The notes under the pieces were generated by a model. It did not search any database. It was not told the DNA's origin and was given only the letters and a program-made list of their open reading frames with translations. A stretch of DNA of 64,000 bases, taken from Paraeggerthella hongkongensis (GTDB taxonomy: Bacteria; Actinomycetota; Coriobacteriia; Coriobacteriales; Eggerthellaceae). The DNA lies in NCBI RefSeq assembly GCF_003340345.1, contig NZ_PPTQ01000014.1, forward strand, positions 1 to 64,000, given 5' to 3'. Shown here piece after piece: positions 35,821-43,747 of this stretch. Within the stretch, counting starts at the first letter, position 1; every line of letters starts with the position of its first letter. Made by a program: the position numbers and the translations under genes.

Positions 35821-36648
35821 ATGACCGAAAAGAGCACGCTCCTGTCCGTACAGGGGCTTACCGCCTCAGCCAACGAAACAGTTATTCTCGATGCCATACA
35901 TTTGGATATCGGATCAGGTGAAACCCACGTCATCATGGGCCCGAACGGCGCCGGCAAGTCAACGCTCGGCCACGTTGTCATGGGCAGTCCCGTCTACACG
36001 GTCGAAAGCGGAACGGTGGAATTCGACGGCCAGGACATCACCGACCTCGCCCCGGACAAGCGCTCGCGCGCAGGGCTGTTCCTGAGCTTTCAGGCGCCGG
36101 TCGAGATACCGGGCGTCCCCGTTTCCAGTTTCCTGCGCGCCACCACGGCGGGTCGCGAAGGGCTCGATATGAAGGGCAAGCTGTTCCGCAAGCACGTGCG
36201 CGACCTTGCGCAAGAGCTGGACATGGATCCCGCCTACCTCGACCGAGAGCTGGGCGTGGGCTTCTCCGGCGGCGAGAAGAAGAAGCTCGAGATGTTGCAG
36301 CTTTTGCTGCTGCGTCCGAAATTGGCCATTCTGGACGAAACGGACTCCGGCCTTGACGTCGATGCCCTGGGCGTGGTCTCGCGAGGCATCGATGCGTACC
36401 GTCGCTCGTGCGAGGGCACGCTGGCCATCATCACCCACAACACTCGCATCCTGGAGCGGCTGGACATCGACCGCGTCCACGTGCTGGTGCGCGGACGCAT
36501 CGTCGAAAGCGGGGACGCGTCGCTCATCCGCGAGATAGACTCCCACGGTTTCGAGCGCTTCGAGCTCATGGATCAGGCCAACGACGCTCCCGTCGATGCG
36601 GCGAGCACCGGTTGCGATGCGCAGCATGGCTGCACCGCAACCGCGTAG
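35821..36648 (+). CDS. sufC: Fe-S assembly ATPase SufC
   Basis: The 275-residue ABC-type ATPase of the SufBCD scaffold. Walker A GPNGAGKST, the SufC-typical LFLSFQAPVEIPGV loop, signature FSGGEKKKLEMLQLLLL and Walker B LAILDETDSGLDVDAL are all present. It ends in a Cys-containing tail (TGCDAQHGCTATA) longer than in E. coli SufC. AAAGGA precedes the ATG. First gene of sufCBDSU; sufB follows after 10 nt. Confidence 0.96.
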   Translation: MTEKSTLLSVQGLTASANETVILDAIHLDIGSGETHVIMGPNGAGKSTLGHVVMGSPVYTVESGTVEFDGQDITDLAPDKRSRAGLFLSFQAPVEIPGVPVSSFLRATTAGREGLDMKGKLFRKHVRDLAQELDMDPAYLDRELGVGFSGGEKKKLEMLQLLLLRPKLAILDETDSGLDVDALGVVSRGIDAYRRSCEGTLAIITHNTRILERLDIDRVHVLVRGRIVESGDASLIREIDSHGFERFELMDQANDAPVDAASTGCDAQHGCTATA

Positions 36649-41086: not shown

Positions 41087-41235
41087 TCATGCCGCTACTC
41101 GGCATAGTCGTGGAGCACAGCCTCGATGTTGTTGCCCTCGAGTTCGTAGACGAACGCCGCATAGTAGCCAGGATGATAGTCGCGGAGACCGAACGCGCCG
41201 TTATCGGCGCCGCCAGCGTGAAGCCACAACCGACT

Positions 41236-43542
41236 CTACACAGCACCCTCTCCGATTTCGTCATCACGCTCCGCCAGGCAGCGCTCCAGCATCCTCTCGA
41301 TTTCGCCTACGTCGCGCTCCCTACCCCTGCTGTCGGTTGGCAACCTGAGCAGCGGGAGCCCGCACCGCTTGAGAACCGCATCCTTCATCCGATCCCGTTT
41401 GTACTGCTTTGTACCTTCCTTGTGGAATCGCCAGGCATCGACCTCGACGGCCAACAAAGGACGCTTGTTCATCTCGCGAAAGAAGAGGAAATCCACGTGC
41501 GTGCGCGGATCCCTCACGTACCTCTCCTCGAGCGGCGAAAGGGAGATGCCCTCGCCTACCAACGTGGACAATCCCACATGGCACCGGAACGACACCCGCG
41601 CGAAACGACCCGTTGCGAGCATATCCTCCAAAGCCGTCGCCATGAGGTTCTCGGAATCGTAGCGGGAGACATGCGGATACTTGCCCAAATACCTCGCTCG
41701 CTCTTCGGCGTATTCCTTGTACAGCAGGTCGAACACGGACCTGATGTTGCTCTGGACGATTTTGAACCCGTTGTACTCGATATAGCGTGCAAGCTCCTCG
41801 ATGTCGTTGTCCTTACGTCCGCGAGGATTCTGCGACGCGACGACGCGAAGTTTCTTGACCGCACGAGAAACCGCGACGTTGACCATTTGGGGGTCGCCGA
41901 CGAAGGCTCCAATGTTGTTTTCGACAGTGGAGAGTATGATGGCGTCGTTCTCGCGTCCTTGGAACTTATGAACCGTCGCCACGGAAACGCCTTCGGGGAC
42001 CGCCTTTTTCAGCTCGCACACCTGGGGGTTGAACGGCGCGATCACGCCGATGTCCCGAATCTCCGAATCGACCAGCTCGGGAATGATCTCGTCGCACACC
42101 ACAGAGACTTGGCGCATGTTCCTGCGCCCTCGCTCGTGGTTGCCTGGCACGGTGCGATGGAAGGAGAGCACGTCCCGCTCGCCCTCGTCCTTCGTCATAA
42201 TGACAAGATCGTCGTCGTAGTACATCTTGTTGCAGAAGCCGATAATTCGAGGATGACAGCGATAGTGCTCTTTGAGCAAAGTCGGTTCCAATGCAGGCCA
42301 AAGGCCGAGAACCGACGTGAGCATGCTATGCTTCGCATAGCGGTAGCAATCCGGGACGCGATATTTATCGGCAATACGGTCGGTTTCGTCCGCGCGCTCC
42401 CTCTTCACCACATTGGCAAGCTGCTTATGATCGCCGACAACGACCACGTTTTTAGCGCATGCGAAAGCCAAAGCTCCAGCCGCCACGCTTATCTGGGAAG
42501 CCTCGTCCATGAGAACGCTGTCGTACCTGAAGCCTGGACCGAGGGAAGTCGTGATCGAATGCGTGGTGCTCAACACCACCGGATACTCTTCCGCGAACGC
42601 CGCCGATCCGCTCCGCAAGCTCCTTAGCTCGAACGTCCTACGATCCCGATTCGGCGAGTAACGCTTTGCAAGCTGGGCTTTGAACGCCCGCATGGACTTC
42701 TCCTCGATAGTCGCCATGTTCGCCTCGAAGTCGTACGACCTTTCCTTTAGGAGGCGAGCCTCGTCCCTCAACTCTCTGAGTTTCGCCCGATAGAACGCGT
42801 CTTGCAGCAAAGGCACAACGAGGAAGTCATCGCGCTCGATCGCATCGAGGTAGAACCCGCCGAAGAAGGCCCTGACGTAGGCGCGGTACAGAAAACCAAC
42901 GGAGCGGCCCTCCTCGACGCGTCGACCTTCCCGCACCCAAAAACGCAAGATGTTTCGTGAAGTCCGTCCGAAGCGCGGATCATGAGGCTCGACTGCTCCC
43001 TTGCCAAGGCTCTCCGCATAGTCCTTGAAGTACTCGTATTCTCTTTCGTACGCGATTATCGATGCCTTGATTTCGGCGAGGCGCCCGCGATCTTCGAGAG
43101 CTCGCCCCAATCCGCTCACCAGCTCTCTCACCTCGGCGATAAGTCTTGAACCTTCAAGCCTCACCGCCCCGAATAGGAGGCGGACGAGAATCGCCGCCGG
43201 ACACCAGACGATCAACAGCACCAAGCCCGTCGACAAAACCATCGCGGCGGATGTCGGGCCCATGACGCCGGCGAGAACCCCAACGATCCCGATCATCGGC
43301 GAGCCATCGCAGAACGCCGCGACCACCACTGCGCACAATAATATGCACAACGCCTGATCGACGCCGAAAACGGCCAGCGACGAGCCGATTCGCTTCTCGA
43401 GTCGAGCCTTGCCGAAATCTATGAGCGCATGAGATATCGACAAGATGAGCCAAGCAAGGACGATACCGTCAAGCGGAAGCGTTACGGAAACGAAAAACGC
43501 CATGCACAGCGCATAGCATCCGCAATGAAAATATAGCAGCAA
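41236..43542 (-). CDS. Chimeric membrane protein: DUF3307-like helices + SF1 helicase lacking Walker A + DUF2726-like nuclease-type domain
   Basis: 768 residues from TTG 43542, or 755 from ATG 43503 (MAFFVSV). Residues 1-145 are hydrophobic and carry SHALIDFGKARLEKR and FGVDQALCILL, resembling the second half of DUF3307 membrane proteins. Residues about 160-600 match UPF1-like SF1 helicases from motif II onward: DEAS (346-349), GDHKQL (370-375), EHYRCHP (425-431), FQGREND (527-533), VAVSRA (556-561). No Walker A (GxxxxGK[ST]) exists anywhere. Residues 675-735 resemble DUF2726, with D684, E700-V-D702 and nearby lysines as in PD-(D/E)xK nucleases. The frame opens at a stop only 4 codons before the TTG, next to an AT-rich inverted repeat, so a 5' truncation or fusion by deletion is likely. 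Whether it functions is open. Confidence 0.75.
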   Translation of the reverse strand: MLLYFHCGCYALCMAFFVSVTLPLDGIVLAWLILSISHALIDFGKARLEKRIGSSLAVFGVDQALCILLCAVVVAAFCDGSPMIGIVGVLAGVMGPTSAAMVLSTGLVLLIVWCPAAILVRLLFGAVRLEGSRLIAEVRELVSGLGRALEDRGRLAEIKASIIAYEREYEYFKDYAESLGKGAVEPHDPRFGRTSRNILRFWVREGRRVEEGRSVGFLYRAYVRAFFGGFYLDAIERDDFLVVPLLQDAFYRAKLRELRDEARLLKERSYDFEANMATIEEKSMRAFKAQLAKRYSPNRDRRTFELRSLRSGSAAFAEEYPVVLSTTHSITTSLGPGFRYDSVLMDEASQISVAAGALAFACAKNVVVVGDHKQLANVVKRERADETDRIADKYRVPDCYRYAKHSMLTSVLGLWPALEPTLLKEHYRCHPRIIGFCNKMYYDDDLVIMTKDEGERDVLSFHRTVPGNHERGRRNMRQVSVVCDEIIPELVDSEIRDIGVIAPFNPQVCELKKAVPEGVSVATVHKFQGRENDAIILSTVENNIGAFVGDPQMVNVAVSRAVKKLRVVASQNPRGRKDNDIEELARYIEYNGFKIVQSNIRSVFDLLYKEYAEERARYLGKYPHVSRYDSENLMATALEDMLATGRFARVSFRCHVGLSTLVGEGISLSPLEERYVRDPRTHVDFLFFREMNKRPLLAVEVDAWRFHKEGTKQYKRDRMKDAVLKRCGLPLLRLPTDSRGRERDVGEIERMLERCLAERDDEIGEGAV

Positions 43543-43564: not shown

Positions 43565-43608
43565 CAATGTTTTTTGTTGCTAATATCAAATAGCAACAAA
43601 AAACATTG
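43565..43608. repeat. 17-bp AT-rich perfect inverted repeat
   Basis: Arms 43565-43581 and 43592-43608, 10-bp AT spacer; each arm contains a T6 or A6 run. It lies 23 bp upstream of the helicase-like frame's TTG. Confidence 0.88.
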
Positions 43609-43691: not shown

Positions 43692-43747
43692 ATTGTCGCC
43701 CGAAACGGACGGTTTTCGGCTCGATTCCGTCCGTTTCGGGCGACAAT
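43692..43747. repeat. 21-bp perfect inverted repeat
   Basis: Arms 43692-43712 and 43727-43747, 14-bp spacer. No T tract follows on either strand. Confidence 0.88.

Follow-up and report, generated by a model that had tools for sequence, protein, structure and literature searches.

The long open reading frame that joins DUF3307-like membrane segments to a P-loop-less SF1 helicase in the window, the 64,000-nucleotide stretch analysed here, is very probably a deletion-scar remnant of a satD operon (Table 1). The initial annotation had left a choice between a membrane-tethered effector working with an ATPase partner and a recent deletion fusion of two genes, and our comparison with relatives favors the second, because two of them, G128 and G023, carry the DUF3307 and helicase genes separate and intact and because the window sequence aligns with that of G128 in colinear blocks interrupted by two gaps. 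The ancestor would have carried, downstream of cysK, satD, a gene for a DUF3307 membrane protein, and an SF1 helicase/nuclease gene (AAA_11/AAA_12/DUF2726), all driven from an AT-rich palindromic operator. One deletion in the window lineage would then have removed satD and the start of the DUF3307 gene, and another the end of the DUF3307 gene together with the first third of the helicase, P-loop included. The joint is in frame by alignment, which on this model would be a matter of chance. The resulting product would be incapable of binding ATP and would have neither an intact membrane protein nor a good ribosome-binding site, so that the fusion most likely arose recently, does not work, and is decaying, a probable pseudogene in the making.

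Table 1. Features of the fusion locus (window coordinates) and of the corresponding operons in relatives (contig named).
Feature	Location	Strand	Description
Fusion ORF	41236..43542	minus	768 codons, TTG start; DUF3307 gene remnant joined in frame to SF1 helicase gene remnant; basis: ORF translation, domain matches, block alignment to G128
Deletion junction 1	43532..43540	minus	satD leader runs into DUF3307 at codon ~39; ~1036 bp lost; ~4 nt (TGCT) common to both ends
DUF3307 fragment	43150..43531	minus	Codons ~39-165 of 254; 82.5% DNA identity to G128
Deletion junction 2	43147..43150	minus	DUF3307 in frame to helicase; ~1138 bp lost, including Walker A and motif Ia
SF1 helicase fragment	41239..43147	minus	Begins near codon 294 of 928; retains motifs II-VI and the DUF2726 tail; 88.5% DNA, 90% protein identity to G128
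Truncated VOC/glyoxalase-like gene	41095..41218	minus	Last ~41 codons; third scar, beside helicase stop; sister species G001 has the whole gene
AT-rich perfect inverted repeat, most likely retained satD operator/promoter	43565..43608		18-bp arms; equivalent palindromes upstream of satD in G128, G023, G141, and G140
Intact operon of satD, DUF3307, and SF1 helicase/DUF2726 genes behind a palindromic operator	L029 5939-10357 (G128)
satD operon remnant in G137	L065 3465-3823		AT-rich operator and last ~63 DUF3307 codons, next to VOC gene

Read from 43542 to 41236, the fusion runs through all of its codons without a stop and is present in a single copy in its own genome. Its first ~131 residues match DUF3307 but without the start of the domain, the Pfam match at residues 3-75 reaching no further than positions 35-107 of the 127 in the profile. 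With nothing left of what are codons 1-38 and 166-254 in G128, the fusion does not encode a full-length DUF3307 membrane protein with its own start, and about 5 hydrophobic segments are found in residues 1-120 compared with 10 overlapping windows along the intact 254-residue protein (Kyte-Doolittle). In the helicase part, AAA_11 is matched at residues 269-380 but only over profile positions 152-255 of 257, the half with the P-loop being missing, and AAA_12 is matched at residues 418-571 (E=3.7e-24). The Walker A/motif I P-loop of an SF1 helicase (AAA_11/AAA_12) is therefore absent, and motifs II (VLMDEASQ), III (GDHKQL), IV (APFNPQ), V (VATVHKFQGREND, also given as VHKFQGREND from the fusion translation), and VI (VNVAVSRA) are all retained. 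The predicted nuclease-like tail at residues 680-744 scores 42.5 bits as DUF2726 against a curated cut-off of 24.7; one study treats DUF2726 as a DNase domain of the restriction-endonuclease fold that occurs in abortive-infection-type fusions (PMC3710099). The initial annotation had thus described the architecture correctly, in its membrane segments without an N-terminal part, its missing P-loop, its intact motifs II to VI, and its DUF2726-like tail.

Where these pieces came from can be read from G128, a complete genome in which satD (290 aa) is followed by the DUF3307 gene (254 aa) and by a helicase of 928 aa from its best start, or 953 aa from its first possible one, with an AAA_11 match from position 2 and a Walker A sequence, GPPGTGKT, in its motif I (GPPGTGKTQT). 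The window minus strand matches this genome in three colinear blocks at 77-88% DNA identity: the operator/promoter (77%), DUF3307 codons ~39-165 (82.5% over 382 bp), and the helicase from about codon 294 (88.5% over 1880 bp). Absent between the blocks are first ~1036 bp of G128 sequence, holding satD and ~38 DUF3307 codons, and then ~1138 bp, holding ~89 DUF3307 codons and ~293 helicase codons with Walker A among them. When the fusion was searched against 138 genomes of the family, its helicase and DUF3307 parts matched two different ORFs, at 90% and 69% protein identity in G128 and at 74-81% and 54% in G023, where the same separate genes stand in the same order with the helicase broken between two contigs. 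Neither satD (by a protein search with a positive control) nor the N-terminal part of the helicase was found elsewhere in the fusion's own genome. Separate intact genes in relatives, colinear blocks with two gaps, and missing parts that are absent from the genome together point to a deletion fusion. The initial proposal of a deletion fusion stands, but the history was one event more complex, with two internal deletions and a third scar at the truncated VOC gene. G128 also has proC and panS between cysK and satD; both are missing at the window locus, and for proC the best match in the rest of the genome reaches only 32% identity. In G023 the helicase gene is interrupted within motif III (GDHK/QL), where two contigs end (L014 1-130 and L002 1-140); the sequence past the break does not carry the helicase on, and a mobile element was perhaps the cause.

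The AT-rich inverted repeat sits at the 5' end of the fusion ORF, just upstream of deletion junction 1. In G128, G023, and G140, satD is immediately preceded by palindromes of the form TAGCAA...TTGCTA, GCAACAAAAAACGTTGC, together with a TTGCTATAGT element, and in G141 by related palindromes; from this similarity the window repeat is most likely the retained satD operator/promoter, and one might guess that SatD itself binds it. The fusion had earlier been described as ending at this repeat, and the repeat does adjoin the scar, but it appears to be a conserved operator/promoter left in place upstream of the junction. Further along, a REP-like palindrome (TGTCGCCCGAAACGKACGGTTTT) occupies window positions 43692-43747, with 26 arm matches in the same genome, 20 in the sister species G001, and none with a reversed control.

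DNA identity to G128 is 86% for cysK and 88.5% for the helicase, similar divergences that fit descent in place with later loss. In the sister species G001 each flank shows 93% identity and the cysK protein 99%, with no trace of the satD operon between the flanks. The remnant in G137 represents independent decay of the same operon, and with only the operator and the DUF3307 tail kept there, the operon has evidently been lost more than once. Orthologues of the fusion, which the initial annotation had suggested seeking, were found neither in any other of the 138 family genomes (fusion protein query) nor in 396 class-wide genomes (DUF3307 query); no relatives were found in viral contigs, and one scan of genome contigs matched only the MAG of Rubneribacter avistercoris and, distantly, a Bacteroidales helicase.

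The Shine-Dalgarno sequence of satD (-11.7 kcal/mol in G128) is deleted in the window, and the candidate starts of the fusion, the TTG (-0.3) and an ATG at 43503 (-3.3), compare poorly with the -5.0 to -9.3 of five of six neighboring genes. The sixth yardstick, at 36596 where the sufB ORF could first begin, is also weak (-1.5), perhaps because the true sufB start lies further in, and the ribosome-site argument is therefore supportive only. For the helicase part, polarised synonymous to non-synonymous substitutions number 54:34 on the window branch, a ratio no different from the 63:33 of the intact G128 branch (p=0.65); for the DUF3307 part the respective counts are 14:21 and 13:17. If the helicase part had been neutral over the whole branch, about 6 stops would be expected where none is seen, and zero stops and the N/S ratio together limit neutral time to ~18-21% of the branch. 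Either the deletions are recent, then, or some constraint remains; a neutral fusion would be no older than the final ~18-21% of the window branch.

The fusion could instead be a working membrane-tethered protein in which DUF3307 helices anchor the second RecA domain and the DUF2726 nuclease domain without ATP hydrolysis of their own. The in-frame junction, the uninterrupted frame with its motifs II to VI and DUF2726, and the lack of excess amino-acid change on the window branch are all compatible with this, but we consider it unlikely. The helicase part lacks motif I and a good deal of its first RecA domain, and both ends of DUF3307 have been lost, as has the satD start with its ribosome-binding site; no free helicase N-terminal half is encoded in the genome to complement the fusion, G001 is without it, and no orthologue appears in the family or class-wide sets. 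The effector with an ATPase partner proposed in the initial annotation fares no better, as it was to be abandoned if relatives carried separate intact genes, and they do. A more specific idea has the retained operator still driving the fusion and selection keeping it as a helicase/nuclease derivative that is anchored in the membrane and independent of ATP, for instance a decoy for related helicase systems or a dominant inhibitor of them; this strikes us as quite improbable. There is very little chance that the joints are a sequencing or assembly artefact bringing together non-adjacent sequence: the assembly is a draft of 53 contigs, but both junctions fall well within one contig of 82.8 kb, the lost sequence is nowhere else in the assembly, the flanks are colinear with G001, and a locus with several linked scars fits real deletions. 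The idea that full-length helicases of this SF1 family normally carry the hydrophobic segment as an insertion has a negligible likelihood and is rejected, since that segment aligns to the separate upstream DUF3307 gene of G128 and G023, and the helicase part aligns to another ORF.

A deletion scar thus remains our preferred reading, and it illustrates how two small deletions suffice to yield a chimaeric ORF resembling a new effector, with comparison to relatives settling its origin. That comparison also exposed the intact satD-DUF3307-helicase/nuclease operon, which we regard as a more interesting object than the fusion. In relatives from the actinobacterial phylum the gene after satD often encodes a multi-helix membrane protein, but the helicase was seen as a third gene only in G128 and G023. 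Literature searches on SatD with DUF3307, on DUF3307 alone, and on the SatD family returned nothing relevant, and the function of the operon seems to be undescribed.

Among known systems, the helicase part scores as MkoA/MkoC-like in PADLOC and as IGHMBP2-like (TIGR00376), but in the Mokosh model only the helicase core is matched (MkoC profile 672-962 of 1136), for the intact relative as for the fusion. The neighbors in relatives are satD and DUF3307 rather than the partner genes of the Mokosh defence architecture, and with no Mokosh partner identified we reject that identity as generic helicase similarity. The C-terminal two thirds of the fusion are an ordinary member of the UPF1-like SF1 helicases that combine AAA_11/AAA_12 with DUF2726, sharing 90% identity with a full-length protein of that kind, but unlike these the fusion is without the first ~293 residues. 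The operator/promoter and middle of DUF3307 at the window locus derive from a pair of SatD family (PF16264) and DUF3307 (PF11750) genes, such as those that G128, G023, G141, and G140 keep intact with similar AT-rich palindromes, whereas in the window satD is deleted and DUF3307 has lost both ends. With deletion-fusion pseudogenes the window fusion shares two intact neighbors in relatives, one chimaeric truncated ORF in their place, and the loss of the start region and a partner gene; it differs in having as yet no disabling stop or frameshift, being in frame by chance or recent.
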